Source: Utricularia gibba
Lineage: Eukaryota; Streptophyta; Magnoliopsida; Lamiales; Lentibulariaceae
Reading direction: 5' to 3'
DNA length: 64,000 bases
Assembly (NCBI GenBank): GCA_002189035.1
Contig: NEEC01000061.1
Location: 1 to 64,000, forward strand
In this document: positions 1 to 64,000 of the stretch, in pieces
Position numbering within the stretch: position 1 is the stretch's first letter
Layout of the letters: each line of letters begins with the position of its first letter
Translations under genes and position numbers: made by a program
Notes under the pieces: model-generated
The model's input: only the letters and a program-made list of their open reading frames with translations
Told to the model about the DNA's origin: nothing
Database searches by the model: none

Positions 1-3000
1 AATATATGTCAAAATCTTGAATTTCGCGCATTCTCATGCGTTTCTACGGGTGTGCTCGGGCCCTGGGACTTCCTACACCAAGGGGTGGCCTCGCGCAGCC
101 TTCGCCATTGACGCCACATCGTCCAAACCGTTTAGAGTCACGCGACACACAGCATACCGTTTCGAAGCTCATTCCGAGACGGTCGTTTTTCGTGTTGGGA
201 GTTCGCCCATCCGAGGAAAGTTCGAAGCTCGACGGATGGCCCTATATAAGCCTTGAATGGTGTCACAAAATGGCCTAGCCATTGGGGACATCGCGACTCC
301 TTTGCTCGTTTTTATGCGAAAAATTATTCTCGGATTGCGAAACACGCGTGATTCGTTAATATATGTCAAAATCTTGAATTTCGCGGCATTCTCATGCGTT
401 TCTACGGGTGTGCTCGGGCCCGGGATTCCTACACCAAGGGTGGCCTCGCGCAGCCTTCGCCATTGACGCCACATCGTCCAAACCGTTTAGAGTCACGCGA
501 CACACAGCATACCGTTTCGAAGCTCATTCTGAGACGATCGTTTTTCGTGTTGGGAGTTTGCCCATCCGAGGAAAGTTCGAAGCTCGACGGATGGCCCTAT
601 ATAAGCCTTGAATGGTGTCACAAAATGGCCTAGCCATTGGGGACATTGGGACTCTTTGCTCGTTTTTATGCGAAAATTCTCGGATTGCGAAACACGCGTG
701 ATTCGTTAATATATGTAAAATCTTGAATTTCGCGGCATTCTCATGCGTTTCCGGTGTGCTCGGGGCCTGGGAATTTACACCAAGGGGTGGCCTCGCGCAG
801 CCTTCGCAATTGACGCCACATCGTCCAAACCGTTTAGAGTCACGCGACACACAGCATACCGTTTCGAAGCTCATTCTGAGACGATCGTTTTTCGTGTTGG
901 AGTTCGCCCATCCGAGGAAAGTTCGAAGCTCGAGGATGGCCCTATATTAAGCCTTGAATGGTGTCACAAAATGGCCTAGCCATTGGGGACATGCGACTCT
1001 TTGCTCGTTTTTATGCGAAAATTATTCTCGGATTGCGAAACACGCGTGATTCGTTAATATATGTCAAAATCTTGAATTTCGCGGCATTCTCATGCGTTTC
1101 TACGGGTGTGCTCGGGCCCTGGGACTTCCTACACCAAGGGTGGCCTCGCGCAGCCTTCGCCATTGACGCCACATCGTCCAAACCGTTTAGAGTCACGCGA
1201 CACACAGCATACCGTTTCGAAGCTCATTCCGAGACGGTCGTTTTTCGTGTTGGAGTTCGCCCATCCGAGGAAAGTTCGAAGCTCGAAGGATGGCCTTATA
1301 TTAGCCTTCAATGGTGTCCAAAATGGTCTAGCCATTGGGGACATGCGACTCCTTTGCTCGTTTTTATGCGAAAAATTATTCTCGGCTTGCGAAACACGCG
1401 TGATTCGTTAATATATGTCAAAATCTTGAATTTCGCGGCATTCTCATGCGTTTCTCCGGGTGTGCTCGGGCCCTGGGAATTCCTACATTAAGGGGTGGCC
1501 TCGCGCAGCCTTCGCCATTGACGCCACATCGTCCAAACCGTTTAGAGTCACGCGACACACAGCATACCGTTTCGAAGCTCATTCTGAGACGATCGTTTTT
1601 CGTGTTGGGAGTTCGCCCATCCGAGGAAAGTTCGAAGCTCGACGGATGGCCCTATATAAGCCTTGAATGGTGTCACAAAATGGTCTAGCCATTGGGGACG
1701 TTGGGACTCTTTGCTCGTTTTTATGCGAAAACTATCTCGGCTTGCGAAACACGCGTGATTCGTTAATATATGTCAAAATCTTGAATTTCGCGGCATTCTC
1801 ATGCGTTTCTCCGAGTGTGCTCGGGCCCTGGGAATTCCTACATTAAGGGGTGGCCTCGCGCAGCCTTCGCATTGACGCCACATCGTCCAAACCGTTTAGA
1901 GTCACGCGACACACAGCATACCGTTTCGAAGCTCATTCGAGACGTCGTTTTTCGTGTTTGGAGTTCGCCCATCCGAGGAAAGTTCGAAGCTCGATGGCCC
2001 TATATAAGCCTTGAATGGTGTCACAAAATGGCCTAGCCATTGGGGACGTTGGACTCGTTTGCTCGTTTTTATGCGAAAACTAATCTCGGCTTGCGAAACA
2101 CGCGTGATTCGTTAATATATGTCAAAATCTTGAATTTCGCGGCATTCTCATGCGTTTCTCCGAGTGTGCTCGGGCCCTGGGAATTCCTACATTAAGGGGG
2201 GCCTCGCGCAGCCTTCGCCATTGACGCCACATCGTCCAAACCGTTTAGAGTCACGCGACACACAGCATACCGTTTCGAAGCTCATTCTGACGTCGTTTTT
2301 CGTGTTGGGAGTTCGCCCATCCGAGGAAAGTTCGAAGCTCGACGGATGGCCCTATATAAGCCTTGAATGGTGTCACAAAATGGCCTAGCCATTGGGGACG
2401 TTGCGACTCCTTTGCTCGTTTTTATGCGAAAATTATTCTCGGATTGCGAAACACGCGTGATTCGTTAATATATGTCAAAATCTTGAATTTCGCGGCATTC
2501 TCATGCGTTTCTCCGGTGTGCTCGGGCCCTGGGAATTCCTACACCAAGGGTGGCCTCGCGCAGCCTTCGCATTGACGCCACATCGTCCAAACCGTTTAGA
2601 GTCACGCGACACACAGCATACCGTTTCGAAGCTCATTTGAGACGGTCGTTTTTCGTGTTGGAATCGCCCACGAGGAAAGTTCGAAGCTCGAAGGATGGCC
2701 CTATATTAGCCTTCAATGGTGTCACAAAATGGTCTAGCCATTGGGGACGGCGACTCTTTGCTCGTTTTTATGCGAAAACTAATCTCGGCTTGCGAAACAC
2801 GCGTGATTCGTTAATATATGTCAAAATCTTGAATTTCGCGGCATTCTCATGCGTTTCTCCGGGTGTGCTCGGGCCCTGGGATTCCTACACCAAGGGGTGG
2901 CCTCGCGCAGCCTTCGCCATTGACGCCACATCGTCCAAACCGTTTAGAGTCACGCGACACACAGCATACCGTTTCGAAGCTCATTCGAGACGGTCGTTTT

Positions 3001-6000
3001 TCGTGTTGGGAGCTTGCCCATCCGAGGAAAGTTCGAGCTCGAAGGATGGCCTTATATTAGCCTTCAATGGTGTCACAAAATGGTCTAGCCATTGGGGACG
3101 TTGCGACTCCTTTGCTCGTTTTTATGCGAAATTATTCTCGGCTTGCGAAACACGCGTGATTCGTTAATATATGTCAAAATCTTGAATTTCGCGGCATTCT
3201 CATGCGTTTCTCCGAGTGTGCTCGGGCCTGGGATTCCTACACCAAGGGGTGGCCTCGCGCAGCCTTCGCCATTGACGCCACATCGTCCAAACCGTTTAGA
3301 GTCACGCGACACACAGCATACCGTTTCGAAGCTCATTCGAGACGTCGTTTTTCGTGTTGGGAGTTCGCCCATCCGAGGAAAGTTCGAAGCTCGAGGATGG
3401 CCCTATATTAAGCCTTGAATGGTGTCACAAAATGGCCTAGCCATTGGGGACGTTCGCGACTCCTTTGCTCGTTTTTATGCGAAAATTATTCTCGGATTGC
3501 GAAACACGCGTGATTCGTTAATATATGTCAAAATCTTGAATTTCGCGGCATTCTCATGCGTTTCTCCGGTGTGCTCGGGCCCTGGGAATTCCTACACCAA
3601 GGGGTGGCCTCGCGCAGCCTTCGCCATTGACGCCACATCGTCCAAACCGTTTAGAGTCACGCGACACACAGCATACCGTTTCGAAGCTCATTCCGAGACG
3701 ATCGTTTTTCGTGTTGGGAAATCGCCCATCCGAGGAAAGTTCGAAGCTCGACGGATGGCCCTATATAAGCCTTGAATGGTGTCACAAAATGGCCTAGCCA
3801 TTGGGGACGTTGGACTCGTTTGCTCGTTTTTATGCGAAAATTATTCTCGGCTTGCGAAACACGCGTGATTCGTTAATATATGTCAAAATCTTGAATTTCG
3901 CGGCATTCTCATGCGTTTCTCCGAGTGTGCTCGGGCCTGGGAATTCCTACATTAAGGGGTGGCCTCGCGCAGCCTTCGCCATTGACGCCACATCGTCCAA
4001 ACCGTTTAGAGTCACGCGACACAGCATACCGTTTCGAAGCTCATTCTGAGACGATCGTTTTTCGTGTTGGAGTTTGCCCATCCGAGGAAAGTTCGAAGCT
4101 CGACGGATGGCCCTATATAAGCCTTCAATGGTGTCACAAAATGGCCTAGCATTGGGGACATTGGGACCTTTGCTCGTTTTTATGCGAAAATTGTTCTCGG
4201 CTTGCGAAACACGCGTGATTCGTTAATATATGTCAAAATCTTGAATTTCGCGGCATTCTCATGCGTTTCTACGGGTGTGCTCGGGCCTGGGAATTCCTAC
4301 ACCAAGGGTGGCCTCGCGCAGCCTTCGCCATTGACGCCACATCGTCCAAACCGTTTAGAGTCACGCGACACACAGCATACCGTTTCGAAGCTCATTCTGA
4401 GACGATCGTTTTTCGTGTTGGAGTTCGCCCATCCGAGGAAAGTTCGAAGCTCGACGGATGGCCCTATATAAGCCTTAAATGGTGTCACAAAATGGTCTAG
4501 CCATTGGGACATGCGACTCCTTTGCTCGTTTTTATGCGAAAATTTTCTCGGCTTGCGAAACACGCGTGATTCGTTAATATATGTCAAAATCTTGAATTTC
4601 GCGGCATTCTCATGCGTTTCTACGAGTGTGCTCGGGCCCGGGATTCCTACACAAGGGGTGGCCTCGCGCAGCCTTCGCCATTGACGCCACATCGTCCAAA
4701 CCGTTTAGAGTCACGCGACACACAGCATACCGTTTCGAAGCTCATTCTGAGACGTCGTTTTTCGTGTTGGGAGTTCGCCCATCCGAGGAAAGTTCGAAGC
4801 TCGAGGATGGCCCTATATAAGCCTTGAATGGTGTCACAAATGGTCTAGCCATTGGGGACATCGCGACTCCTTTGCTCGTTTTTATGCGAAAATTATTCTC
4901 GGCTTGCGAAACACGCGTGATTCGTTAATATATGTCAAAATCTTGAATTCGCGGCATTCTCATGCGTTTCTCCGGGTGTGCTCGGGCCCTGGGAATTCCT
5001 ACATTAAGGGTGGCCTCGCGCAGCCTTCGCCATTGACGCCACATCGTCCAAACCGTTTAGAGTCACGCGACACACAGCATACCGTTTCGAAGCTCATTCT
5101 GAGACGTCGTTTTTCGTGTTGGGAGTTCGCCCATCCGAGGAAAGTTCGAAGCTCGACGGATGGCCCTATATAAGCCTTGAATGGTGTCACAAAATGGCCT
5201 AGCCATTGGGGACGTTGGACTCGTTTGCTCGTTTTTATGCGAAAACTAATCTCGGCTTGCGAAACACGCGTGATTCGTTAATATATGTCAAAATCTTGAA
5301 TTTCGCGCATTCTCATGCGTTTCTCCGGGTGTGCTCGGGCCCGGGAATTCCTACACCAAGGGGTGGCCTCGCGCAGCCTTCGCATTGACGCCACATCGTC
5401 CAAACCGTTTAGAGTCACGCGACACACAGCATACCGTTTCGAAGCTCATTCCGAGACGTCGTTTTTCGTGTTGGGAGTTCGCCCATCCGAGGAAAGTTCG
5501 AAGCTCGAAGGATGGCCTATATTAGCCTTCAATGGTGTCACAAAATGGTCTAGCCATTGGGGACGTTGCGACTCCTTTGCTCGTTTTTATGCGAAAATTA
5601 TCTCGGCTTGCGAAACACGCGTGATTCGTTAATATATGTCAAAATCTTGAATTTCGCGGCATTCTCATGCGTTTCTACGGTGTGCTCGGGCCCGGGACTT
5701 CCTACACCAAGGGTGGGCCTCGCGCAGCCTTCGCCATTGACGCCACATCGTCCAAACCGTTTAGAGTCACGCACACACAGCATACCGTTTCGAAGCTCAT
5801 TCTGAGACGTCGTTTTTCGTGTTGGGAGTTCGCCCATCCGAGGAAAGTTCGAAGCTCGACGGATGGCCCTATAAGCCTTGAATGTGTCACAAATGGCCTA
5901 GCCATTGGGGACGTTGCGACTCCTTTGCTCGTTTTTATGCGAAAATTATTCTCGGCTTGCGAAACACGCGTGATTCGTTAATATATGTCAAAATCTTGAA

Positions 6001-9000
6001 TTTCGCGGCATTCTCATGCGTTTCTACGGTGTGCTCGGGCCCTGGGAATTCCTACATTAAGGGGTGGCCTCGCGCAGCCTTCGCCATTGACGCCACATCG
6101 TCCAAACCGTTTAGAGTCACGCGACACACAGCATACCGTTTCGAAGCTCATTCTGAGACGTCGTTTTTCGTGTTTGGAGTTCGCCCATCCGAGGAAAAGT
6201 TCGAAGCTCGAACGGATGGCCCTATATAAGCCTTGAATGTGTCACAAAATGGCCTAGCCATTGGGGACGTTGGGACTCTTTGCTCGTTTTATGCGAAAAC
6301 TAATCTCGGCTTGCGAAACACGCGTGATTCGTTAATATATGTCAAAATCTTGAATTTCGCATTCTCATGCGTTTCTCCGAGTGTGCTCGGGCCCTGGGAT
6401 TCCTACACCAAGGGGTGGCCTCGCGCAGCCTTCGCCATTGACGCCACATCGTCCAAACCGTTTAGAGTCACGCGACACACAGCATACCGTTTCGAAGCTC
6501 ATTCTGAGACGTCGTTTTTCGTGTTGGGAGTTCGCCCATCCGAGGAAAGTTCGAAGCTCGACGGATGGCCCTATATAAGCCTTGAATGGTGTCACAAAAT
6601 GGCCTAGCCATTGGGGACATCGCGACTCCTTTGCTCGTTTTTATGCGAAAATTATTCTCGGATTGCGAAACACGCGTGATTCGTTAATATATGTCAAAAT
6701 CTTGAATTTCGCGGCATTCTCATGCGTTTCTACGGGTGTGCTCGGGCCCTGGGATTCCTACACAAGGGGTGGCCTCGCGCAGCCTTCGCCATTGACGCCA
6801 CATCGTCCAAACCGTTTAGAGTCACGCGACACACAGCATACCGTTTCGAAGCTCATTCCGAGACGTCGTTTTTCGTGTTGGGAATTCGCCCATCCGAGGA
6901 AAGTTCGAAGCTCGAGGATGGCCCTATATAGCCTTGAATGGTGTCACAAAATGGTCTAGCCATTGGGACGTTGCGACTCCTTTGCTCGTTTTTATGCGAA
7001 AAATTCTCGGCTTGCGAAACACGCGTGATTCGTTAATATATGTCAAAATCTTGAATTTCGCGGCATTCTCATGCGTTTCTCGAGTGCTCGGGCCCTGGAA
7101 TTCCTACATTAAGGGGTGGCCTCGCGCAGCCTTCGCCATTGACGCCACATCGTCCAAACCGTTTAGAGTCACGCGACACACAGCATACCGTTTCGAAGCT
7201 CATTCTGAGACGATCGTTTTTCGTGTTGGGAGTTGCCCATCCGAGGAAAGTTCGAAGCTCGACGGATGGCCCTATATAAGCCTTTAATGGTGTCACAAAA
7301 TGGCCTAGCCATTGGGGACATTGGGACTCTTTGCTCGTTTTTATGCGAAAATTCTCGGATTGCGAAACACGCGTGATTCGTTAATATATGTCAAAATCTT
7401 GAATTTCGCGGCATTCTCATGCGTTTCTAGTGTGCTCGGGCCCTGGGAATTTCCTACACCAAGGGTGGCCTCGCGCAGCCTTCGCATTGACGCCACATCG
7501 TCCAAACCGTTTAGAGTCACGCGACACACAGCATACCGTTTCGAAGCTCATTCTGAGACGTCGTTTTTCGTGTTGGAGTTCGCCCATCCGAGGAAAGTTC
7601 GAAGCTCACGGATGGCCCTATATAAGCCTTAATGGTGTCACAAAATGGCCTAGCCATTGGGGACATGCGACTCCTTTGCTCGTTTTTATGCGAAAATTAT
7701 TCTCGGCTTGCGAAACACGCGTGATTCGTTAATATATGTCAAAATCTTGAATTTCGCGGCATTCTCATGCGTTTCTACGAGTGTGCTCGGGCCCGGGACT
7801 TCCTACACCAAGGGTGGCCTCGCGCAGCCTTCGCCATTGACGCCACATCGTCCAAACCGTTTAGAGTCACGCACACACATACCGTTTCGAAGCTCATTCT
7901 GAGACGTCGTTTTTCGTGTTGGAGTTCGCCCATCCGAGGAAAGTTCGAAGCTCGAGGATGGCCCTATATAAGCCTTGAATGGTGTCACAAAATGGTCTAG
8001 CCATTGGGGACATCGCGACTCCTTTGCTCGTTTTTATGCGAAAATTATTCTCGGATTGCGAAACACGCGTGATTCGTTAATATATGTCAAAATCTTGAAT
8101 TTCGCGGCATTCTCATGCGTTTCTACGGGTGTGCTCGGGCCCTGGGAATTCCTACAAAGGGGTGGCCTCGCGCAGCCTTCGCCATTGACGCCACATCGTC
8201 CAAACCGTTTAGAGTCACGCGACACACAGCATACCGTTTCGAAGCTCATTCTGAGACGTCGTTTTTCGTGTTGGGATTCGCCCATCCGAGGAAAGTTCGA
8301 AGCTCGAAGGATGGCCCTATATAAGCCTTGAATGGTGTCACAAAATGGTCTAGCCATTGGGGACGTTGCGACTCTTTGCTCGTTTTTATGCGAAAACTAA
8401 TCTCGGCTTGCGAAACACGCGTGATTCGTTAATATATGTCAAAATCTTGAATTTCGCGGCATTCTCATGCGTTTCTCCGGTGTGCTCGGGCCCTGGGACT
8501 TCCTACACCAAGGGGTGGCCTCGCGCAGCCTTCGCCATTGACGCCACATCGTCCAAACCGTTTAGAGTCACGCGACACACAGCATACCGTTTCGAAGCTC
8601 ATTCGAGACGTCGTTTTTCGTGTTGGGAGTTCGCCCATCCGAGGAAAGTTCGAAGCTCGACGGATGGCCCTATAAGCCTTGAATGGTGTCACAAATGGCC
8701 TAGCCATTGGGACGTTGCGACTCCTTTGCTCGTTTTTATGCGAAAATTATTCTCGGCTTGCGAAACACGCGTGATTCGTTAATATATGTCAAAATCTTGA
8801 ATTTCGCGGCATTCTCATGCGTTTCTCCGGGTGTGCTCGGGCCCTGGGATTCCTACACCAAGGGGTGGCCTCGCGCAGCCTTCGCCATTGACGCCACATC
8901 GTCCAAACCGTTTAGAGTCACGCGACACACAGCATACCGTTTCGAAGCTCATTCCGAGACGATCGTTTTTCGTGTTGGGAAATCGCCCATCCGAGGAAAG

Positions 9001-12000
9001 TTCGAAGCTCGAGGATGGCCCTATATAAGCCTTGAATGGTGTCACAAAATGGCCTAGCCATTGGGGACGTTGCGACTCCTTTGCTCGTTTTTATGCGAAA
9101 ATTATTCTCGGCTTGCGAAACACGCGTGATTCGTTAATATATGTCAAAATCTTGAATTTCGCGGCATTCTCATGCGTTTCTCCGAGTGTGCTCGGGCCTG
9201 GGAATTCCTACATTAAGGGGTGGCCTCGCGCAGCCTTCGCCATTGACGCCACATCGTCCAAACCGTTTAGAGTCACGCGACACACAGCATACCGTTTCGA
9301 AGCTCATTCTGAGACGTCGTTTTTCGTGTTGGGAGTTCGCCCATCCGAGGAAAGTTCGAAGCTCGACGGATGGCCCTATATAGCCTTAATGGTGTCACAA
9401 AATGGCCTAGCCATTGGGGACGTTGGGACTCGTTTGCTCGTTTTTATGCGAAAATCTCGGATTGCGAAACACGCGTGATTCGTTAATATATGTCAAAATC
9501 TTGAATTTCGCGGCATTCTCATGCGTTTCTACGGGTGTGCTCGGGCCCTGGGAATTCCTACACCAAGGGGTGGCCTCGCGCAGCCTTCGCATTGACGCCA
9601 CATCGTCCAAACCGTTTAGAGTCACGCGACACACAGCATACCGTTTCGAAAGCTCATTCTGAGACGATCGTTTTTCGTGTTGGAGTTCGCCCATCCGAGG
9701 AAAGTTCGAAGCTCGACGGATGGCCCTATATAAGCCTTCAATGGTGTCACAAAATGGCCTAGCCATTGGGGACATCGCGACTCCTTTGCTCGTTTTTATG
9801 CGAAAATTATTCTCGGCTTGCGAAACACGCGTGATTCGTTAATATATGTCAAAATCTTGAATTTCGCGGCATTCTCATGCGTTTCTACGGGTGTGCTCGG
9901 CCCCGGGATTCCTACACCAAGGGGTGGCCTCGCGCAGCCTTCGCCATTGACGCCACATCGTCCAAACCGTTTAGAGTCACGCGACACACAGCATACCGTT
10001 TCGAAGCTCATTCTGAGACGATCGTTTTTCGTGTTGGGAGTTCGCCCATCCGAGAAAGTTCGAAGCTCGACGGATGGCCCTATATTAAGCCTTGAATGGT
10101 GTCACAAAATGGCCTAGCCATTGGGGACGTTGCGACTCCTTTGCTCGTTTTTATGCGAAAATTATTCTCGGATTGCGAAACACGCGTGATTCGTTAATAT
10201 ATGTCAAAATCTTGAATTTCGCGGCATTCTCATGCGTTTCTACGGGTGTGCTCGGGCCCTGGGAATTCCTACACCAAGGGGTGGCCTCGCGCAGCCTTCG
10301 CCATTGACGCCACATCGTCCAAACCGTTTAGAGTCACGCGACACACAGCATACCGTTTCGAAGCTCATTCTGAGACGATCGTTTTTCGTGTTGGGAGTTG
10401 CCCATCCGAGGAAAGTTCGAAGCTCGACGGATGGCCCTATATAAGCCTTGAATGGTGTCACAAAATGGTCTAGCCATTGGGACGTTGGACTCGTTTGCTC
10501 GTTTTTATGCGAAAAACTAATCTCGGCTTGCGAAACACGCGTGATTCGTTAATATATGTCAAAATCTTGAATTTCGCGGCATTCTCATGCGTTTCTCCGA
10601 GTGTGCTCGGGCCCTGGAATTCCTACACCAAGGGGTGGCCTCGCGCAGCCTTCGCCATTGACGCCACATCGTCCAAACCGTTTAGAGTCACGCGACACAA
10701 GCATACCGTTTCGAAGCTCATTCTGAGACGTCGTTTTTCGTGTTGGAGTTCGCCCATCCGAGGAAAGTTCGAAGCTCGAATGGCCCTATATAAGCCTTGA
10801 ATGGTGTCACAAAATGGTCTAGCCATTGGGGACGTTGCGACTCTTTGCTCGTTTTTATGCGAAAACTAATCTCGGCTTGCGAAACACGCGTGATTCGTTA
10901 ATATATGTCAAAATCTTGAATTTCGCGGCATTCTCATGCGTTTCTCCGAGTGTGCTCGGGCCCTGGGAATTCCTACATTAAGGGGTGGCCTCGCGCAGCC
11001 TTCGCCATTGACGCCACATCGTCCAAACCGTTTAGAGTCACGCGACACACAGCATACCGTTTCGAAGCTCATTCTGAGACGATCGTTTTTCGTGTTGGGA
11101 GTTCGCCCATCCGAGGAAAGTTCGAAGCTCGAGGATGGCCCTATATAAGCCTTGAATGGTGTCACAAAATGGCTAGCCATTGGGGACGTTGCGACTCCTT
11201 TGCTCGTTTTTATGCGAAATTATTCTCGGCTTGCGAAACACGCGTGATTCGTTAATATATGTCAAAATCTTGAATTTCGCGGCATTCTCATGCGTTTCTC
11301 CGAGTGTGCTCGGGCCCTGGGAATTCCTACATTAAGGGTGGCCTCGCGCAGCCTTCGCCATTGACGCCACATCGTCCAAACCGTTTAGAGTCACGCGACA
11401 CACAGCATACCGTTTCGAAGCTCATTCTGAGACGTCGTTTTTCGTGTTGGGAGTTCGCCCATCCGAGGAAAGTTCGAAGCTCGACGAATGGCCTATATAA
11501 GCCTTGAATGGTGTCACAAAATGGCTAGCCATTGGGGACGTTGGGACTCGTTTGCTCGTTTTTTGCGAAAACTAATCTCGGCTTGCGAAACACGCGTGAT
11601 TCGTTAATATATGTCAAAATCTTGAATTTCGCGGCATTCTCATGCGTTTCTCCGAGTGTGCTCGGGCCCTGGGAATTCCTACATTAAGGGGTGGCCTCGC
11701 GCAGCCTTCGCCAATTGACGCCACATCGTCCAAACCGTTTAGAGTCACGCGACAAACAGCATACCGTTTCGAAGCTCATTCTGAGACGATCGTTTTTCGT
11801 GTTGGGAGTTCGCCCATCCGAGGAAAGTTCGAAGCTCGACGGATGGCCCTATATAAGCCTTGAATGGTGTCACAAAATGGCCTAGCCATTGGGGACGTTG
11901 CGACTCCTTTGCTCGTTTTTATGCGAAAATTATTCTCGGATTGCGAAACACGCGTGATTCGTTAATATATGTCAAAATCTTGAATTTCGCGGCATTCTCA

Positions 12001-12205
12001 TGCGTTTCTCCGAGTGTGCTCGGGCCCTGGGAATTCCTACATTAAGGGGTGGCCTCGCGCAGCCTTCGCCATTGACGCCACATCGTCCAAACCGTTTAGA
12101 GTCACGCGACACACAGCATACCGTTTCGAAGCTCATTCTGAGACGATCGTTTTTCGTGTTGGAGTTCGCCCATCCGAGGAAAGTTCGAAGCTCGACGGAT
12201 GGCCC

Positions 12206-12213
12206 TATATAAG
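12206..12213 (+). other. TATA-like octamer in E-class monomers
   Basis: The string tatataag within ccctatataagcc occurs in E-class monomers. Classes A, B, C, D and F have tatattag at the same column, which breaks the match. It resembles a plant Pol II TATA box and could support satellite transcription. The motif is short, AT-rich and multiplied by the array, and I see no other promoter element, so a regulatory role is only a possibility. Confidence 0.12.
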
Positions 12214-12231
12214 CCTTGAATGGTGTCACAA

Positions 12232-12246
12232 AATGGCCTAGCCATT
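12232..12246. other. Conserved dyad aatggcctagccatt in each monomer
   Basis: Six-base arms aatggc and gccatt flank cta in E-class units. Units with aatggtctagccatt keep five-base arms. Units that lost one base (for example near 11170, 13300, 51900 and 52965) read aatggctagccatt, a perfect 14-bp palindrome. It is one of the best conserved spots of the monomer and recurs about every 356 bp. A protein-binding or hairpin role is conjecture. Confidence 0.45.
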
Positions 12247-13790
12247 GGGGACGTTGCGACTCCTTTGCTCGTTTTTATGCGAAAATTATTCTCGGATTGC
12301 GAAACACGCGTGATTCGTTAATATATGTCAAAATCTTGAATTTCGCGGCATTCTCATGCGTTTCTACGGGTGTGCTCGGGCCCTGGGAATTCCTACATTA
12401 AGGGGTGGCCTCGCGCAGCCTTCGCCATTGACGCCACATCGTCCAAACCGTTTAGAGTCACGCGACACACAGCATACCGTTTCGAAGCTCATTCTGAGAC
12501 GATCGTTTTTCGTGTTGGGAGTTTGCCCATCCGAGGAAAGTTCGAAGCTCGACGGATGGCCCTATATAAGCCTTGAATGGTGTCACAAAATGGTCTAGCC
12601 ATTGGGGACGTTGGGACTCGTTTGCTCGTTTTATGCGAAAATTAATCTCGGCTTGCGAAACACGCGTGATTCGTTAATATATGTCAAAATCTTGAATTTC
12701 GCGGCATTCTCATGCGTTTCTCCGAGTGTGCTCGGGCCCTGGGAATTCCTACATTAAGGGGTGGCCTCGCGCAGCCTTCGCAATTGACGCCACATCGTCC
12801 AAACCGTTTAGAGTCACGCGACACACAGTATACCGTTTCGAAGCTCATTCTGAGACGTCGTTTTTCGTGTTGGGAGTTCGCCCATCCGAGGAAAGTTCGA
12901 AGCTCGACGGATGGCCCTATATAAGCCTTGAATGGTGTCACAAAATGGCCTAGCCATTGGGGACGTTGGGACTCGTTTGCTCGTTTTTATGCGAAAACTA
13001 ATCTCGGCTTGCGAAACACGCGTGATTCGTTAATATATGTCAAAATCTTGAATTTCGCGGCATTCTCATGCGTTTCTACGGGTGTGCTCGGGCCCTGGGA
13101 ATTCCTACATTAAGGGGTGGCCTCGCGCAGCCTTCGCCATTGACGCCACATCGTCCAAACCGTTTAGAGTCACGCGACACACAGCATACCGTTTCGAAGC
13201 TCATTCTGAGACGATCGTTTTTCGTGTTGGGAGTTCGCCCATCCGAGGAAAGTTCGAAGCTCGACGGATGGCCCTATATAAGCCTTGAATGGTGTCACAA
13301 AATGGCTAGCCATTGGGGACATCGCGACTCCTTTGCTCGTTTTTATGCGAAAATTATTCTCGGCTTGCGAAACACGCGTGATTCGTTAATATATGTCAAA
13401 ATCTTGAATTTCGCGGCATTCTCATGCGTTTCTACGGGTGTGCTCGGGCCCCGGGACTTCCTACATCAAGGGGTGGCCTCGCGCAGCCTTCGCCATTGAC
13501 GCCACATCGTCCAAACCGTTTAGAGTCACGCGACACACAGCATACCGTTTCGAAGCTCATTCTGAGACGATCGTTTTTCGTGTTGGGAGTTTGCCCATCC
13601 GAGGAAAGTTCGAAGCTCGACGGATGGCCCTATATAAGCCTTGAATGGTGTCACAAAATGGCCTAGCCATTGGGGACGTTGGGACTCGTTTGCTCGTTTT
13701 TATGCGAAAATTCTCGGATTGCGAAACACGCGTGATTCGTTAATATATGTAAAATCTTGAATTTCGCGGCATTCTCATGCGTTTCTCCGA

Positions 13791-51689: not shown

Positions 51690-51712
51690 TGCGTTTCTAA
51701 TTCCTACACCAA
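51690..51712. other. Loss of the gtgtgctcggg head from one monomer
   Basis: The sequence runs gcgtttctaattcctacacc, so about 20 bp that normally hold gtgtgctcgggccctggg are absent. The rest of the unit is present. The unit near 57574 (gcgtttccgaattcctac) lacks almost the same bases. Confidence 0.8.
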
Positions 51713-53799
51713 GGGGTGGCCTCGCGCAGCCTTCGCCATTGACGCCACATCGTCCAAACCGTTTAGAGTCACGCGACACACAGCATACCGTTTCGAAGCT
51801 CATTCTGAGACGTCGTTTTTCGTGTTGGGAGTTTGCCCATCCGAGGAAAGTTCGAAGCTCGAAGGATGGCCTATATAGCCTTGAATGGTGTCACAAAATG
51901 GCTAGCCATTGGGGACGTTGCGACTCCTTTGCTCGTTTTTATGCGAAAACTAATCTCGGCTTGCGAAACACGCGTGATTCGTTAATATATGTCAAAATCT
52001 TGAATTTCGCGGCATTCTCATGCGTTTCTCGGGTGTGCTCGGGCCCTGGGATTCCTACACCAAGGGGTGGCCTCGCGCAGCCTTCGCCATTGACGCCACA
52101 TCGTCCAAACCGTTTAGAGTCACGCGACACACAGCATACCGTTTCGAAGCTCATTCTGAGACGATCGTTTTTCGTGTTGGGAGTTCGCCCATCCGAGGAA
52201 AGTTCGAAGCTCGACGGATGGCCCTATATAAGCCTTGAATGGTGTCACAAAATGGCCTAGCCATTGGGGACGTTGGGACTCGTTTGCTCGTTTTTATGCG
52301 AAAAAATCTCGGCTTGCGAAACACGCGTGATTCGTTAATATATGTCAAAATCTTGAATTTCGCGGCATTCTCATGCGTTTCTCCGAGTGTGCTCGGCCCT
52401 GGGAATTCCTACATTAAGGGGTGGCCTCGCGCAGCCTTCGCCATTGACGCCACATCGTCCAAACCGTTTAGAGTCACGCGACACACAGCATACCGTTTCG
52501 AAGCTCATTCCGAGACGGTCGTTTTTCGTGTTGGGAGCTTGCCCATCCGAGGAAAGTTCGAAGCTCGAAGGATGGCCTTATATTAGCCTTCAATGGTGTC
52601 AAAATGGTCTAGCCATTGGGGACATTGCGACTCCTTTGCTCGTTTTTATGCGAAAATTATTCTCGGCTTGCGAAACACGCGTGATTCGTTAATATATGTC
52701 AAAATCTTGAATTTCGCGGCATTCTCATGCGTTTCTACGGTGTGCTCGGGCCCTGGGACTTCCTACACCAAGGGGTGGCCTCGCGCAGCCTTCGCCATTG
52801 ACGCCACATCGTCCAAACCGTTTAGAGTCACGCGACACAAAGCATACCGTTTCGAAGCTCATTCTGAGACGGTCGTTTTTCGTGTTGGAGTTCGCCCATC
52901 CGAGGAAAGTTCGAAGCTCGACGGATGGCCCTATATAAGCCTTGAATGGTGTCACAAAATGGCTAGCCATTGGGGACGTTGGGACTCGTTTGCTCGTTTT
53001 TATGCGAAAATAATCTCGGCTTGCGAAACACGCGTGATTCGTTAATATATGTCAAAATCTTGAATTTCGCGGCATTCTCATGCGTTTCTCCGAGTGTGCT
53101 CGGGCCCTGGGAATTCCTACATTAAGGGGTGGCCTCGCGCAGCCTTCGCCATTGACGCCACATCGTCCAAACCGTTTAGAGTCACGCGACACACAGCATA
53201 CCGTTTCGAAGCTCATTCTGAGACGATCGTTTTTCGTGTTGGGAGTTCGCCCATCCGAGGAAAGTTCGAAGCTCGACGGATGGCCCTATATAGCCTTCAA
53301 TGGTGTCACAAAATGGCCTAGCCATTGGGGACGTTGGGACTCTTTGCTCGTTTTTATGCGAAAACTAATCTCGGCTTGCGAAACACGCGTGATTCGTTAA
53401 TATATGTCAAAATCTTGAATTTCGCGGCATTCTCATGCGTTTCTACGGGTGTGCTCGGGCCCGGGACTTCCTACACCAAGGGGTGGCCTCGCGCAGCCTT
53501 CGCCATTGACGCCACATCGTCCAAACCGTTTAGAGTCACGCGACACAAGCATACCGTTTCGAAGCTCATTCCGAGACGATCGTTTTTCGTGTTGGGAGTT
53601 CGCCCATCCGAGGAAAGTTCGAAGCTCGACGGATGGCCCTATATAAGCCTTGAATGGTGTCACAAAATGGCCTAGCCATTGGGGACGTTGCGATCCGTTT
53701 GCTCGTTTTTATGCGAAAATTGTTCTCGGACTTGCGAAACACGCGTGATTCGTTAATATATGTCAAAATCTTGAATTTCGCGGCATTCTCATGCGTTTC

Positions 53800-53945
53800 T
53801 CCTCGGGCCCTGGGAGTGTCGCTCGGCGCCTGGGAATTCCTGATTAATTGGCTCTCGCGCAGCCTTCGCTCATGCGAAAATGGCTTGCGAAACACGCGTG
53901 ATTCGTTAATATATGTCAAAATCTTGAATTTCGCGGCATTCTCAA
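53800..53945. repeat. Truncated monomer, about 153 bp between repeat landmarks
   Basis: Two gaatttcgcggcattctc landmarks lie about 153 bp apart where 356 is expected. The head is partly doubled (ctcgggccctggg, then gctcggcgcctggg), then gattaattggctctcgcgcagccttcg jumps directly to atgcgaaaatggcttgcg. The middle of the monomer, from gacgccac to the dyad, is missing. Confidence 0.75.
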
Positions 53946-54104
53946 CTCGGGCCCTTTCCTAGGGGTGGCCTCGCGCAGCCTTCGCCATTGACGCCACATC
54001 GTCCAAACCGTTTAGAGTCACGCGACACACAGCATACCGTTTCGAAGCTCATTCGAGACGGTCGTTTTTCGTGTTGGGAGACGCCCATCCGAGGAAAGTT
54101 CGAA

Positions 54105-54240
54105 GCTCGAATTCGTGGTTGGGAGTTGCGCTCGTTTTTATGCGAAAATCTCGGCTTGCGAAACACGCGTGATTCGTTAAGTTCGAAGCGAAGCTCGAAG
54201 GATATATAGCCTTGAATGGTGGGGCCAATTGGACTCCTTT
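54105..54240. repeat. Back-jumping unit with duplicated ctcgtttttatgcg tail
   Basis: After gttcgaagctcga the sequence skips to an abnormal attcgtggttgggagttg, then the ctcgtttttatgcg...cacgcgtgattcgtta tail. It then jumps back to gttcgaagcgaagctcgaagg and tatatagccttgaatgg and repeats the tail at about 54240. The dyad is reduced to ggggccaattgg. Confidence 0.7.
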
Positions 54241-54837
54241 GCTCGTTTTTATGCGAAAATAATCTCGGCTTGCGAAACACGCGTGATTCGTTAATATATG
54301 TCAAAATCTTGAATTTCGCGGCATTCTCATGCGTTTCTCCGGTGTGCTCGGGCCCTGGGACTTCCTACACCAAGGGGCCTCGCGCAGCCTTCGCCATTGA
54401 CGCCACATCGTCCAAACCGTTTAGAGTCACGCGACACACAGCATACCGTTTCGAAGCTCATTCTGAGACGATCGTTTTTCGTGTTGGGAGTTCGCCCATC
54501 CGAGGAAAGTTCGAAGCTCGACGGATGGCCCTATATCCTTGAATGGTGTCACAAAATGGCCTAGCCATTGGGGACGTTGCGACTCTTTTGCTCGTTTTTA
54601 TGCGAAAATTAATCTCGGCTTGCGAAACACGCGTGATTCGTTAATATATGTCAAAATCTTGAATTTCGCGGCATTCTCATGCGTTTCTCGGTGTGCTCGG
54701 GCCCGGGACTTCCTACATTAAGGGGTGGCCTCGCGCAGCCTTCGCCATTGACGCCACATCGTCCAAACCGTTTAGAGTCACGCGACACACAGCATACCGT
54801 TTCGAAGCTCATTCTGAGACGGTCGTTTTTCGTGTTG

Positions 54838-54970
54838 GGATTGCCCATTTTCGCCTCGGTGTCTAGGGGGAAGCGTCCTTATGCGAAAATTATTCTCGGA
54901 TCCGCGATTCGTTACAAAATCTTGAATTTCGCATGCCACGGAGCCATTGACGGGTCGTTTTTCGAGTGTC
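54838..54970. repeat. Scrambled island 1
   Basis: From gttgggattgcccat the repeat gives way to tttcgcctcggtgtctagggg, then abbreviated tail words (atgcgaaaattattctcgg, cgattcgtta, caaaatcttgaatttcgc), catgccacggagccattgacgg and tcgtttttcgagtgtcgcccatcc. Normal sequence resumes at ccgaggaaagttcg. Nearly every piece is a satellite word with the connecting bases missing. Confidence 0.65.
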
Positions 54971-55787
54971 GCCCATCCGAGGAAAGTTCGAAGCTCGACG
55001 GATGGCCCTATATAAGCCTTGAATGGTGTCACAAAATGGCCTAGCCATTGGGGACGTTGGACTCGTTTGCTCGTTTTTATGCGAAAATAATCTCGGCTTG
55101 CGAAACACGCGTGATTCGTTAATATATGTCAAAATCTTGAATTTCGCGGCATTCTCATGCGTTTCTCCGAGTGTGCTCGGGCCCTGGGAATTCCTACATT
55201 AAGGGTGGCCTCGCGCAGCCTTCGCCATTGACGCCACATCGTCCAAACCGTTTAGAGTCACGCGACACACAGCATACCGTTTCGAAGCTCATTCTGAGAC
55301 GGTTTTTCGTGTTGGAGTTCGCCCATCCGAGGAAAGTTCGAAGCTCGACGGATGGCCCTATATAAGCCTTGAATGGTGTCACAAAATGGCCTAGCCATTG
55401 GGGACGTTGCGACTCGTTTGCTCGTTTTTATGCGAAAATAATCTCGGCTTGCGAAACACGCGTGATTCGTTAATATATGTCAAAATCTTGAATTTCGCGG
55501 CATTCTCATGCGTTTCTGAGTGTGCTCGGGCCCTGGGAATTCCTACATTAAGGGGCCTCGCGCAGCCTTCGCCATTGACGCCACATCGTCCAAACCGTTT
55601 AGAGTCACGCGACACACAGCATACCGTTTCGAAGCTCATTCTGAGACGATCGTTTTTCGTGTTGGGAGTTCGCCCATCCGAGGAAAGTTCGAAGCTCGAC
55701 GGATGGCCCTATATAGCCTTGAATGGTGTCACAAAATGGCCTAGCCATTGGGGACGTTGCGACTCGTTTGCTCGTTTTTATGCGAAA

Positions 55788-55875
55788 ATCTCGTTTGAAC
55801 GAATTTCGCGGCATTCTCATGCGTTTCTAAATGAGCACACACATACGTGATTCGGCGCAGATTCGTTTGCGCGCC
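55788..55875. repeat. Scrambled island 2, with a short unfamiliar stretch
   Basis: The tail shortens to gaaaatctcgtttgaacg, runs through gaatttcgcggcattctcatgcg, then has about 45 bases (taaatgagcacacacatacgtg, ggcgcagattcgtttgcgc) that do not align well to any monomer class. The satellite resumes at gccacatcgtcc. The stretch is too short to identify. Confidence 0.6.
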
Positions 55876-56139
55876 ACATCGTCCAAACCGTTTAGAGTCA
55901 CGCGACACACAGCATACCGTTTCGTCATTCTGAGACGATCGTTTTTCGTGTTGGGAGTTCGCCCATCCGAGGAAAGTTCGAAGCTCGACGGATGGCCCTA
56001 TATAAGCCTTGAATGGTGTCACAAAATGGCCTAGCCATTGGGGACGTTGCGACTCCTTTGCTCGTTTTTATGCGAAAATTGTTCTCGGATTGCGAAACAC
56101 GCGTGATTCGTTATATATGTCAAAATCTTGAATTTCGCG

Positions 56140-56160
56140 GCATAAGTGTGCTCGAATTCC
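56140..56160. other. Shortened monomer border
   Basis: Here gcggcataagtgtgctcgaattcc replaces the usual border and head, dropping about 20 bases (ttctcatgcgtttctcc and part of gggccctggg). The flanking satellite is normal. Confidence 0.65.
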
Positions 56161-56724
56161 TACATTAAGGGGTGGCCTCGCGCAGCCTTCGCCATTGACG
56201 CCACATCGTCCAAACCGTTTAGAGTCACGCGACACACAGCATACCGTTTCGAAGCTCATTCCGAGACGGTCGTTTTTCGTGTTGGGAGTTGCCCATCCGA
56301 GGAAAGTTCGAAGCTCGAAGGATGGCCTTATATTAGCCTTCAATGGTGTCACAAAATGGTCTAGCCATTGGGGAGCGACTCCTTTGCTCGTTTTTATGCG
56401 GGCTTGCGAAACACGCGTGATTCGTTAATATATGTCAAAATCTTGAATTTCGCGGCATTCTCATGCGTTTCTTGTGCTCGGGCCTGGGACTTCCTACACC
56501 AAGGGGTGGCCTCGCGCAGCCTTCGCCATTGACGCCACATCTTCCAAACCGTTTAGAGTCACGTCACAAAGCATGTTTCGAAGCTCATTCTGAGACGGTC
56601 GTTTTTCGTGTTGGAGTTCGCCCATCCGAGGAAAGTTCGAAGCTCGACGGATGGCCCTATATAAGCCTTGAATGGTGTCACAAAATGGCCTAGCCATTTG
56701 GGACTCGTTTGCTCGTTTTTATGC

Positions 56725-56940
56725 GAAAATCTCGGCTTGCGATCGCCATTGTGCTCGAATTCGGAATTGACGTCGTCCAATGAGTCTCCGAAGGAGAAAT
56801 TTCTCGAAGGATGGCCTTATATTAGCCTTCAATGGTGTCACAAAATGGTGTCACCATTGGCTCGGGCCCTCGGGGACATGCGAATTTGGTCTCGGCTATG
56901 CGAAATTTCGATTGACGGATTCCAAACGTCTTGAATTTCG
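56725..56940. repeat. Scrambled island 3
   Basis: After ctcggcttgcg come isolated words: atcgccattgtgctcgaattc, ggaattgacgtcgtccaatg, agtctccgaaggagaaatttctcgaagg. Then follow a near-normal tatattagccttcaatggtgtc, a distorted tgtcaccattggctcgggccctcgggg, and gaatttggtctcggctatgcg. Normal repeat returns at cttgaatttcgcggc. Word order broadly follows the monomer, but most spacers are missing. Confidence 0.65.
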
Positions 56941-57104
56941 CGGCATTCTCATGCGTTTCTAGTGTGCTCGGGCCCTGGGAATTCCTACACCAAGGGGGGG
57001 TGGCGCGCCTTCGCATTGACGCCACATCGTCCAAACCGTTTAGAGTCACGCGACACACAGCATACCGTTTCGAAGCTCATTCTGAGACGGTCGTTTTCGT
57101 GTTG

Positions 57105-57170
57105 GGAGTTCGCTCCATCCGAGGACAAAATGGCCTAGCCATTGGGGACGTTGGGACGCTCTTTTTATGC
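57105..57170. other. Monomer with internal loss of about 50 bp
   Basis: After gggagttcgctccatccgagga the sequence passes straight to caaaatggcctagccatt. This removes the second ttcgaagctc and the atggccctata segment. The following ctcgtttttatgcg is shortened to gctctttttatgcg. Confidence 0.75.
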
Positions 57171-58844
57171 GAAAACTAATCTCGGCTTGCGAAACACGCG
57201 TGATTCGTTAATATATGTCAAAATCTTGAATTTCGCGGCATTCTCATGCGTTTCTCCGAGTGTGCTCGGGCCCTGGGAATTCCTACATTAAGGGTGGCCT
57301 CGCGCAGCCTTCGCCATTGACGCCACATCGTCCAAACCGTTTAGAGTCACGCGACACAGCATACCGTTTCGAAGCTCATTCTGAGACGTCAGTTCGCCCA
57401 TCCGAGGAAAGTTCGAAGCTCGAAGGATGGCCTTATATTAGCCTTCAATGGTGTCACAAAATGGTCTAGCCATTGGGGACATGCGACTCCTTTGCTCGTT
57501 TTTATGCGAAAATATTGCGATGATTCGTTAATATATGTCAAAATCTTGAATTTCGCGGCATTCTCATGCGTTTCCGAATTCCTACACCAAGGGGTGGCCT
57601 CGCGCAGCCTTCGCCATTGACGCCACATCGTCCAAACCGTTTAGAGTCACGCGACACACAGCATACCGTTTCGAAGCTCATTCTGAGACGATCGTTTTTC
57701 GTGTTGGGAGTTCGCCCATCCGAGGAAAGTTCGAAGCTCGACGGATGGCCCTATTAAGCCTTGAATGGTGTCACAAAATGGCCTAGCCATTGGGGACGTT
57801 GCGACTCCTTTGCTCGTTTTTATGCGAAAATTGTTCTCGGATTGCGAAACACGCGTGATTCGTTAATATATGTCAAAATCTTGAATTTCGCGGCATTCTC
57901 ATGCGTTTCTCCGAGTGTGCTCGGCCCTGGGAATTCCTACATTAAGGGTGGCCTCGCGCAGCCTTCGCCATTGACGCCACATCGTCCAAACCGTTTAGAG
58001 TCACGCGACACACAGCATACCGTTTCGAAGCTCATTCCGAGACGGTCGTTTTTCGTGTTGGGAGCTTGCCCATCCGAGGAAAGTTCGAAGCTCGAAGGAT
58101 GGCCTTATATAAGCCTTCAATGGTGTCAAAATGGTCTAGCCATTGGGGACGTTGCGACTCCTTTGCTCGTTTTTATGCGAAAATTAATCTCGGCTTGCGA
58201 AACACGCGTGATTCGTTAATATATGTCAAAATCTTGAATTTCGCGGCATTCTCATGCGTTTCTCGAGTGTGCTCGGGCCCGGGAATTCCTACACCAAGGG
58301 GTGGCCTCGCGCAGCCTTCGCCATTGACGCCACATCGTCCAAACCGTTTAGAGTCACGCGACACACAGCATACCGTTTCGAAGCTCATTCCGAGACGATC
58401 GTTTTTCGTGTTGGGAGTTCGCCCATCCGAGGAAAGTTCGAAGCTCGACGGATGGCCCTATATAAGCCTTGAATGGTGTCACAAAATGGCCTAGCCATTG
58501 GGGACGTTGCGACTCCTTTGCTCGTTTTTATGCGAAAATTAATTCTCTTGCGAAACACGCGTGATTCGTTAATATATGTCAAAATCTTGAATTTCGCGGC
58601 ATTCTCATGCGTTTCTCCGAGTGTGCTCGGGCCCTGGAATTCCTACATTAAGGGGTGGCCTCGCGCAGCCTTCGCCATTGACGCCACATCGTCCAAACCG
58701 TTTAGAGTCACGCGACACACAGCATACCGTTTCGAAGCTCATTCTGAGACGGTCGTTTTTCGTGTTGGAGTTCGCCCATCCGAGGAAAGTTCGAAGCTCG
58801 AAGGATGGCCTTATATAGCCTTGAATGGTGTCACAAAATGGTAG

Positions 58845-59190
58845 CCATTGGGGAGCGACTCCTTTGCTCGTTTTTATGCGAAAATGGGGAAACACGCGTG
58901 ATTCGCAAAATCTTGAATTTCTCGCTCGGCCACGCGACACACAGCATACCGTTTCGAAGCTCATGAGACGGAGTCGCATTCTCATGAGGAAAGTTCCTTC
59001 TTGACGAGACCACATCTTCGATTAGCCTTCAGAGTCAATGCGAAAATTTTCTCGGAAGCGTGATTCGCGAATTTCGCGGGACTCGAGAGCCTTCGCCATT
59101 GTCGTTTTTCGTTTTTATGAGCGAATCCGAGGAAAGTTCGAAGCTCGAAGGATGGCCTCTTCGGCTTTCAACATGTCATGATTCGTTAAT
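58845..59190. repeat. Scrambled island 4, the largest (about 345 bp)
   Basis: From tagccattggggagcgactcc the sequence becomes a chain of short satellite words: atgcgaaaatgggg, aaacacgcgtgattcg, caaaatcttgaatttctcg, cacgcgacacacagcatacc, catgagacggagtcgcattctc, then ttgacgagaccacatcttcg, gattagccttcagagtcaatg and a second, still more reduced pass ending gaaagttcgaagctcgaagg. Normal repeat resumes at catgattcgttaatatatg. Its span is about one monomer but it holds fragments of two passes. Confidence 0.65.
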
Positions 59191-61579
59191 ATATGTCAAA
59201 ATCTTGAATTTCGCGGCATTCTCATGCGTTTCTCCGGGTGTGCTCGGGCCCTGGGATTCCTACACCAAGGGGTGGCCTCGCGCAGCCTTCGCCATTGACG
59301 CCACATCGTCCAAACCGTTTAGAGTCACGCGACACACAGCATACCGTTTCGAAGCTCATTCTGAGACGATCGTTTTTCGTGTTGGGAGTTCGCCCATCCG
59401 AGGAAAGTTCGAAGCTCGACGGATGGCCCTATATATAGCCTTGAATGGTGTCACAAAATGGCCTAGCCATTGGGGACGTTGCGACTCCTTTGCTCGTTTT
59501 TATGCGAAAAATTTTCTCGCGAAACACGCGTGATTCGTTAATATATGTCAAAATCTTGAATTTCGCGGCATTCTCATGCGTTTCTCCGAGTGTGCTCGGG
59601 CCCTGGGAATTCCTACACCAAGGGTGGCCTCGCGCAGCCTTCGCCATTGACGCCAATCGTCCAAACCGTTTAGAGTCACGCGACACACAGCATACCGTTT
59701 CGAAGCTCATTCGAGACGGTCGTTTTTCGTGTTGGGAGTTGCCCATCCGAGGAAAGTTCGAAGCTCGAAGGATGGCCTATATTAGCCTTTGGTGTCAAAA
59801 TGGTCTAGCCATTGGGGACATCGACTCCTTTGCTCGTTTTTATGCGAAAATTCTCGGATTGCGAAAACACGCGTGATTCGTTAATATATGTCAAAATCTT
59901 GAATTTCGCGGCATTCTCATGCGTTTCTCCGAGTGTGCTCGGCCCTGGGAATTCCTACATTAAGGGGTGGCCTCGCGCAGCCTTCGCCATTGACGCCACA
60001 TCGTCCAAACCGTTTAGAGTCACGCGACACACAGCATACCGTTTCGAAGCTCATTCCGAGACGTCGTTTTTCGTGTTGGGGCCCATCCGAGGAAAGTTCG
60101 AAGCTCGAAGGATGGCCTTATTAGCCTTCAATGGTTCAAAAATGGTCTAGCCATTGGGGACATGCGACTCCTTTGCTCGTTTTTATGCGAAAATTATCTC
60201 GGATTGCGAAACACGCGTGATTCGTTAATATATGTCAAAATCTTGAATTTCGCGGCATTCTCATGCGTTTCTAGTGTGCTCGGGCCCTGGGATTCCTACA
60301 CCAAGGGGTGGCCTCGCGCAGCCTTCGCCATTGACCCACATCGTCCAAACCGTTTAGAGTCACGCGACACAGCATACCGTTTCGAAGCTCATTCTGAGAC
60401 GGTCGTTTTTCGTGTTGGAGTTCGCCCATCCGAGGAAAGTTCGAAGCTCGACGGATGGCCCTATATAAGCCTTGAATGGTGTCACAAAATGGCCTAGCCA
60501 TTGGGGACGTTGCGACTCTTTGCTCGTTTTTATGCGAAAAAATCTCGGCTTGCGAAACACGCGTGATTCGTTAATATATGTCAAAATCTTGAATTTCGCG
60601 GCATTCTCATGCGTTTCTCCGAGTGTGCTCGGGCCCTGGGAATTCCTACATTAAGGGGTGGCCTCGCGCAGCCTTCGCATTGACGCCACATCGTCCAAAC
60701 CGTTTAGAGTCACGCGACACAAGCATGTTTCGAAGCTCATTCTTCGTTTTTCGTGTTGGGAGCTTGCCCATCCGAGGAAAGTTCGAAGCTCGAAGGATGG
60801 CCTATATTAGCCTTCAATGGTGTCAAAATGGTCTAGCCATTGGGGACATTGCGACTCCTTTGCTCGTTTTTATGCGAAAACTAATCTCGGCTTGCGAAAC
60901 ACGCGTGATTCGTTAATATATGTCAAAATCTTGAATTTCGCGGCATTCTCATGCGTTTCTAGTGTGCTCGGGCCCTGGGAATTCCTACATTAAGGGGTGG
61001 CCTCGCGCAGCCTTCGCCATTGACGCCACATCGTCCAAACCGTTTAGAGTCACGCGACACAAAGCATACCGTTTCGAAGCTCATTCTGAGACGATCGTTT
61101 TTCGTGTTGGGAGTTCGCCCATCCGAGGAAAGTTCGAAGCTCGACGGATGGCCCTATATAAGCCTTGAATGGTGTCACAAAATGGCCTAGCCATTGGGGA
61201 CGTTGCGACTCCTTTGCTCGTTTTTATGCGAAAATTGTTCTCGGATTGCGAAACACGCGTGATTCGTTAATATATGTCAAAATCTTGAATTTCGCGGCAT
61301 TCTCATGCGTTTCTACGGGTGTGCTCGGGCCCTGGGATTCCTACACCAAGGGGTGGCCTCGCGCAGCCTTCGCCATTGACGCCACATCGTCCAAACCGTT
61401 TAGAGTCACGCGACACACAGCATACCGTTTCGAAGCTCATTCTGAGACGTCGTTTTTCGTGTTGGGAGTTCGCCCATCCGAGGAAAGTTCGAAGCTCGAC
61501 GGATGGCCCTATATAAGCCTTGAATGGTGTCACAAAATGGCCTAGCCATTGGGGACGTTGGGACTCGTTTGCTCGTTTT

Positions 61580-61755
61580 TAATGGCGTGATTCGTTAATA
61601 TATGTCAAAATCTTGAATTTCGCGGCATTCTCATGCGTTTCTCCGAGTGTGCTCGGGCCCTGGGAATTCCTACACCAATTGACGGGTCATGTTTCGAAAT
61701 GCGAATTTCTTCCCAACGTGAAAAGTGTGTCGGGCATTCTCATAAATTCCTACAT
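61580..61755. repeat. Truncated and partly unfamiliar unit
   Basis: The tail is shortened (ctcgtttttaatggcgtgattcg). After a normal head at 61647, cctacaccaattgacgggtcatg leads into ttcgaaatgcgaatttcttccc and aacgtgaaaagtgtgtcgggcattctc, then aattcctacattaagg starts a normal monomer body. About 60 bases do not match any class closely. Confidence 0.65.
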
Positions 61756-62239
61756 TAAGGGGTGGCCTCGCGCAGCCTTCGCCATTGACGCCACATCGTC
61801 CAAACCGTTTAGAGTCACGCGACACACAGCATACCGTTTCGAAGCTCATTCTGAGACGTCGTTTTTCGTGTTGGGAGCTTGCCCATCCGAGGAAAGTTCG
61901 TCGAAGGATGGCCTATATTAGCCTTCAATGGTGTCAAAAATGGTCTAGCCATTGGGGACATGCGACTCCTTTGCTCGTTTTTATGCGAAAATTCTCGGAT
62001 TGCGAAACACGCGTGATTCGTTAATATATGTCAAAATCTTGAATTTCGCGGCATTCTCATGCGTTTCCGTGTGCTCGGGCCCTGGACTTCCTACACCAAG
62101 GGTGGCCTCGCGCAGCCTTCGCCATTGACGCCACATCGTCCAAACCGTTTAGAGTCACGCGACACACAGCATACCGTTTCGAAGCTCATTCTGAGACGAT
62201 CGTTTTTCGTGTTGGGAGTTCGCCCATCCGAGGAAAGTT

Positions 62240-62290
62240 CGCTCGACGGATGGGCCTCATGGCGTTTTGCTCCTTTGCTCGTTTTATGCG
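62240..62290. other. Monomer with internal loss of about 60 bp
   Basis: After gaggaaagttcgctcgacgg the sequence reads atgggcctcatggcgttttgctcc and rejoins at ctttgctcgttttatgcg. The tatataagcc segment and the dyad are missing. Confidence 0.7.
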
Positions 62291-64000
62291 AAAATTGTTC
62301 TCGGCTTGCGAAACACGCGTGATTCGTTAATATATGTCAAAATCTTGAATTTCGCGGCATTCTCATGCGTTTCTCCGAGTGTGCTCGGGCCCTGGGAATT
62401 CCTACATTAAGGGGTGGCCTCGCGCAGCCTTCGCATTGACGCCACATCGTCCAAACCGTTTAGAGTCACGCGACACACAGCATACCGTTTCGAAGCTCAT
62501 TCTGAGACGGTCGTTTTTCGTGTTGGGAGCTTGCCCATCCGAGGAAAGTTCGAAGCTCGAAGGATGGCCTATATTAGCCTTCAATGGTGTCACAAAATGG
62601 TCTAGCCATTGGGGACATTGCGACTCCTTTGCTCGTTTTTATGCGAAAATTTCTCGGCTTGCGAAACACGCGTGATTCGTTAATATATGTCAAAATCTTG
62701 AATTTCGCGGCATTCTCATGCGTTTCTAGTGTGCTCGGGCCCTGGGAATTCGGGGTGGCCTCGCGCAGCCTTCGCCATTGACGCCACATCGTCCAAACCG
62801 TTTAGAGTCACGCGACACACAGCATACCGTTTCGAAGCTCATTCTGAGACGTCGTTTTTCGTGTGGGAGTTCGCCCATCCGAGGAAAGTTCGAAGCTCGA
62901 GGATGGCCCTATATAAGCCTTGAATGGTGTCACAAAATGGCCTAGCCATTGGGGACGTTGCGACTGCTCGTTTTTATGCGAAAATTTTCTCGGATTGCGA
63001 AACACGCGTGATTCGTTAATATATGTCAAAATCTTGAATTTCGCGGCATTCTCATGCGTGGGTGTGCTCGGGCCCGGGACTTCCTACACCAAGGGGTGGC
63101 CTCGCGCAGCCTTCGCCATTGACGCCACATCGTCCAAACCGTTTAGAGTCACGCGACACACAGCATACCGTTTCGAAGCTCATTCTGAGACGTCGTTTTT
63201 CGTGTTGGGAGTTCGCCCATCCGAGGAAAGTTCGAAGCTCGAGGATGGCCCTATATAAGCCTTGAATGGTGTCACAAAATGGAGCCATTGGGGACGTTGG
63301 ACTCTTTGCTCGTTTTTATGCCTCGGCTTGCGAAACACGCGTGATTCGTTAATATATGTCAAAATCGAATTTCGCGGCATTCTCATGCGTTTCTCCGAGT
63401 GTGCTCGGGCCCTGGGATTCCTACATTAAGGGGTGGCCTCGCGCAGCCTTCGCCATTGACGCCACATCGTCCAAACCGTTTAGAGTCACGCGACACACAG
63501 CATACCGTTTCGAAGCTCATTCCGAGACGGTCGTTTTTCGTGTTGGAGCTTGCCCATCCGAGGAAAGTTCGAAGCTCGAAGGATGGCCTATATTAGCCTT
63601 CAATGGTGTCAAAATGGTCTAGCCATTGGGGACGTTGCGACTCCTTTGCTCGTTTTTATGCGAAAATTATTCTCGGATTGCGAAACACGCGTGATTCGTT
63701 AATATATGTCAAAATCTTGAATTTCGCGGCATTCTCATGCGTTTCTCCGAGTGTGCTCGGGGCCCTGGGAATTCCTACATTAAGGGGTGGCCTCGCGCAG
63801 CCTTCGCCATTGACGCCACATCGTCCAAACCGTTTAGAGTCACGCGACACACAGCATTCGTTTCGAAGCTCATTCTGAGACGGTCGTTTTTCGTGTTGGG
63901 AGTTGCCCATCCGAGGAAAGTTCGAAGCTCGAAGGATGGCCTATAAGCCTTGAATGGTGTCACAAAATGGTCTAGCCATTGGGGACGTTCGACTCCTTTG

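Follow-up and report, generated by a model that had tools for sequence, protein, structure and literature searches.

Directional single-base losses in a Utricularia gibba satellite array are very probably a consensus artefact of mixed repeat copies

The question raised by this locus is whether the single bases missing from many units of a Utricularia gibba satellite were lost by the genome or by its assembly. The window, the whole stretch of DNA analysed, is the first 64 kb of the 81.6-kb contig C410 in an assembly of 516 contigs (100.09 Mb). A satellite of ~356 bp occupies it, and likewise fills contig C74 (84.5 kb) and the sampled parts of C382. TRF reports 152 copies with a period of 356 over positions 1-53802 of the forward strand, and the array continues on the same strand, with many losses, over 59179-64000 (10% indels in TRF); a search of Rfam gave no match. 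The distribution of unit lengths has a sharp upper limit at 357-358 and a long tail of shorter units. A 2.63-Mb contig has at one end a further array of ~137 kb (C402:1-137000 as sampled), which turns divergent ahead of unique DNA, at ~137-140 kb. Given that the putative centromeres of U. gibba have been described as being without satellite repeats (PMC8333044), this array deserves a look in its own right.

Cutting the whole window at GATTCGTTAATATATG gave 168 units, and 622 units were cut from the four contigs C410, C74, C382 and C402, of which 561 well-behaved units were scored. Each unit was aligned to a degenerate profile in which a column accepts all of its common alleles, with all equivalent gap placements scored, and random base deletion within the same units served as the null. 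This realignment replaced a MAFFT alignment of the units, in which some gaps fell in the wrong column (for example 72 instead of 77). The original prediction held that single bases are lost where monomer classes disagree, and this is borne out: 1,054 of the 1,361 one-base losses (77.5%) lie at polymorphic columns against 21.2% under random deletion, a pattern present in all four contigs and in C410 alone, where polymorphic columns take 327 of 419. The comparison of gap rates that it proposed between polymorphic and invariant columns gives clearly unequal values, with 63 losses (4.6%) at invariant single columns against 43.0% under the null. A second class of losses in short homopolymers, likewise foreseen, does exist, with 244 losses (18%) inside invariant runs, which is below the 35.9% expected by chance. 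The short forms offered as examples are present (attcgag 14, cgcattg 17, gggattcc 19, actcttt 23, ctcgaggat 9 and tggctagcc 5 times), as is ccttaatgg, a weak example because it occurs only 2 times. The form gacgtcg is distributed as had been described, with 18 of its 29 occurrences up to ~12.9 kb, none between that point and ~37.3 kb, and the other 11 beyond. One such loss, of column 190, is found at 4741-4770 of the forward strand, where ...GAGACG(A/G)TCG... becomes GAGACGTCG (exact match CTCATTCTGAGACGTCGTTTTTCGTGTTGG).

The losses obey a narrower rule. Loss of a column requires that one of its alleles equals the preceding or the following base, so that two indels can stand in for the substitution. 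Polymorphic columns able to share a neighbour's base in this way account for 1,045 of the 1,361 losses (76.8%; null 19.2%), and polymorphic columns that are isolated, with no allele matching a neighbour, for 9 (0.7%; null 2.0%). The isolated columns 263 (G/C), 298 (G/A) and 341 (C/A), whose minor alleles stand at 0.36-0.37, were lost 2, 4 and 1 times in the 561 units, whereas columns 54, 190, 241, 250, 256, 282, 302 and 308, of comparable balance and with a neighbour-matching allele, were lost 82, 41, 20, 91, 41, 38, 46 and 43 times.

Furthermore, the losses have a direction. We class as L those columns with an allele matching only the base before, and as R those with an allele matching only the base after. 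L losses dominate C410:1-12.3 kb and C402:30-90 kb, and R losses dominate C74, C382 and C402:0-10 kb. Within the window, on the forward strand, the loss-rich stretch 1-12300 has L and R losses of 49:4, and the stretch 37300-53750 contains both types at 25:16. Over six stretches, partly picked after inspection of the data, the counts are 49:4, 25:16, 47:97, 3:12, 63:18 and 5:26 (chi-square 101, 5 df, p 2.6e-20), and the L columns 77, 190, 241, 300 and 308 and the R columns 54, 282 and 331 all switch together with the stretch. Columns 241 (L) and 282 (R) lie 41 bases apart and follow largely the same class split, yet their counts are 12:4 against 5:32 (Fisher p 2.6e-5), making local composition an unlikely cause of the stretch-dependent loss. 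When the order of L and R losses inside each contig was tested by counting switches, C402 and C74 gave a significant result and C410 and C382 did not; the directional claim therefore rests on differences between stretches. The direction holds for tens of kb, which exceeds the length of a read and would not obviously come from a consensus step acting purely read by read, and C410 is mixed at 37-54 kb; both points weigh against a consensus artefact. Column 72, the T in GGGCCCTGGG, is nearly invariant and often lost, mainly in C74, where 27 units contain GGGCCCGGG; its losses are an exception to the L/R rule, as they do not match the direction assigned to C74.

The losses are not inherited among units that are otherwise alike: where units are identical at all other polymorphic columns, a given loss is shared in 18% of cases, against a base rate of 10%. 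Private substitutions number 203 in the 561 units, ~7-fold fewer than deletions, a scarcity that would be expected if averaging had erased rare variants. In C402 an interior unit has 4.5-5.3 losses, and the figure drops to 3.7 and then to 1.6 over the last kb before unique sequence, the last bin holding 7 units only, which are also more divergent, and private substitutions rise there; both trends would be expected if mixing spares reads that are anchored in unique DNA or in divergent units. Losses are also few in the higher-order-repeat core of the window (12900-37300, forward strand), where copies are resolvable and polymorphic-column losses come to ~0.9 per unit against 2.45 elsewhere in C410. 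As observations on the monomer itself, the repeat of this core (13000-37300) spans ~1,785 bp, or ~five monomers, and its columns 93-241 carry class-specific substitutions that the flanks mostly lack. Across the 168 units of the window, columns 0-50, 95-105, 131-150, 166-181 and 309-330 form blocks almost free of substitutions and losses between variable blocks, which could reflect functional constraint or recent homogenisation.

We propose, with high confidence and on the basis of the assembled contigs together with a graph simulation, that the lost bases are a consensus artefact of mixed repeat copies in a long-read assembly. Different monomer copies would contribute the reads piled onto one array position. 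Where a substitution separates the classes and one of the alleles is the same as the adjacent base, the gap would be shifted, and the difference would become a one-base deletion paired with an insertion at another point of the short run. When it is the following base that the substituted base matches, this insertion would slide off and the edge that skips the seed's base would receive the full support of the other class; should neither class exceed half of the reads, the path omitting both alleles would win and the base would disappear. Where no allele matches a neighbour, the alleles would remain parallel alternatives and one of them would be retained. As gaps shift one way only, the direction of loss would depend on the strand processed, such that processing of one strand would lose following-base columns and processing of the other preceding-base columns. 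Graphs of the pbdagcon type recast each mismatch as a deletion together with an insertion, and push gaps to the right; Falcon and Canu use related consensus schemes. The program responsible likely belonged to PacBio's HGAP family, with pbdagcon; the step would be read pre-assembly, unitig consensus or polishing. U. gibba has been assembled with HGAP (PMC5793159).

A pbdagcon-like graph, re-implemented and run on noisy simulated reads with no fitting, does lose bases in this manner. In a simulated 50:50 mix the base was lost in 40 of 240 R contexts, 1 of 240 L contexts, 0 of 240 isolated contexts and 0 of 120 invariant CC contexts, and with gap pushing off the direction vanished. Simulations of whole units, with mixtures of real units, correlate with the observed losses at polymorphic columns at rho 0.73 for the forward orientation and R stretches and rho 0.69 for the reverse orientation and L stretches; the forward-minus-reverse difference correlates as well (rho 0.48, p 4e-4), and column 282 is lost in 5.9% of simulated units and 5.8% of observed units in R stretches. 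With the orientations swapped a somewhat lower correlation persists (rho 0.63-0.64), as several columns count as both L and R. The simulation recovers which columns are preferred, mirrors that preference when seeds lie on the reverse strand, and spares isolated columns and invariant CC; it falls short in yielding ~1 loss per unit against the ~5 seen, and in creating insertions that are rare in the real data.

Other explanations must be weighed against this one. The original prediction attributed the losses to a split-vote consensus, and its premise of mixed repeat copies is strongly supported, but its wording, by which every column without a majority base is dropped, fits poorly: although most losses do lie at balanced polymorphic columns, columns 263, 298 and 341 are balanced and kept (7 losses in total in 561 units) and simulated isolated columns were never lost, leaving this plain rule next to no credence. 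A split vote combined with gap shifting is the better and sharper rule. Ordinary long-read homopolymer error, affecting polymorphic columns only since one allele extends a run, is very improbable. It would account for the facts that every affected column has an allele making a run of at least 2 and that invariant runs hold their 18% of losses, but invariant two-base runs are scarcely affected (5.1% of losses, null 18.9%), which argues against simple homopolymer error, and five-base runs are not enriched but depleted as well; the loss rate did not rise with run length regardless of polymorphism. Such error should moreover ignore the side of the matching base, yet the side switches between stretches of the contigs.

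The same switch bears on real deletion in the satellite, by slippage or by heteroduplex mismatch repair during gene conversion between monomer classes. Heteroduplex repair would naturally target mismatched columns, and the losses do sit at between-class differences; against this, isolated mismatch columns are spared, one-base deletions exceed insertions ~14:1 (1,559 to 112) and private substitutions ~7:1, near-identical units do not share most losses as descent would have them do, and the losses fade toward unique DNA. Mutation gives no reason for the side of loss to depend on the stretch, whereas a gap-shifting consensus graph does, and we regard real deletion as scarcely credible. A repair process that is itself strand-polarised, removing mismatched bases during monomer exchange only where adjacent-base slippage is possible, seems to us just as far-fetched. 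Neither the choice of program and step, nor the long-range direction, nor column 72 revives a biological reading.

Four patches on the forward strand of the window are garbled: compressed monomer fragments at 53801-54200, where more than half of the bases lie in rare 12-mers, and further monomer fragments at 54801-55000, 56801-57000 and 58801-59200. Both these patches (53801-59200) and C402 at ~64-73 kb contain shortened pieces of monomer whose order is jumbled or has skips, are rich in rare 12-mers, and are probably the consensus of reads aligned out of register. Elsewhere in the assembly an intact rbcL lies on contig C516, and broken rbcL-like fragments off the plastid contig (C2:3012594-3013507, C2:3544311-3544720, C451:6448262 and C515:58344) are probably transferred plastid DNA.

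With its tandem ~356-bp monomers and a multi-monomer repeat in the core, the array is like plant satellites that have higher-order repeats, but its one-base losses do not belong to the variation of the satellite itself. They resemble the consensus errors of collapsed repeats in noisy long-read assemblies, which likewise average different copies into mosaics with missing bases, and differ in following a precise column rule with a direction, a combination that we did not find in limited searches of open-access text. They also resemble the working of pbdagcon, the DAG consensus in HGAP, which turns mismatches into indels, pushes gaps in a single direction and skips nodes of low support, and whose re-implementation matches the loss pattern. 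The switch between L and R directions is a cheap, read-free signature with which other public assemblies could be screened for mixed-copy consensus. The lost satellite bases are almost certainly assembly errors that need correction and not biology, and the monomer length, indel polymorphism, unit divergence and higher-order-repeat structure taken from arrays in older long-read assemblies are partly products of software.
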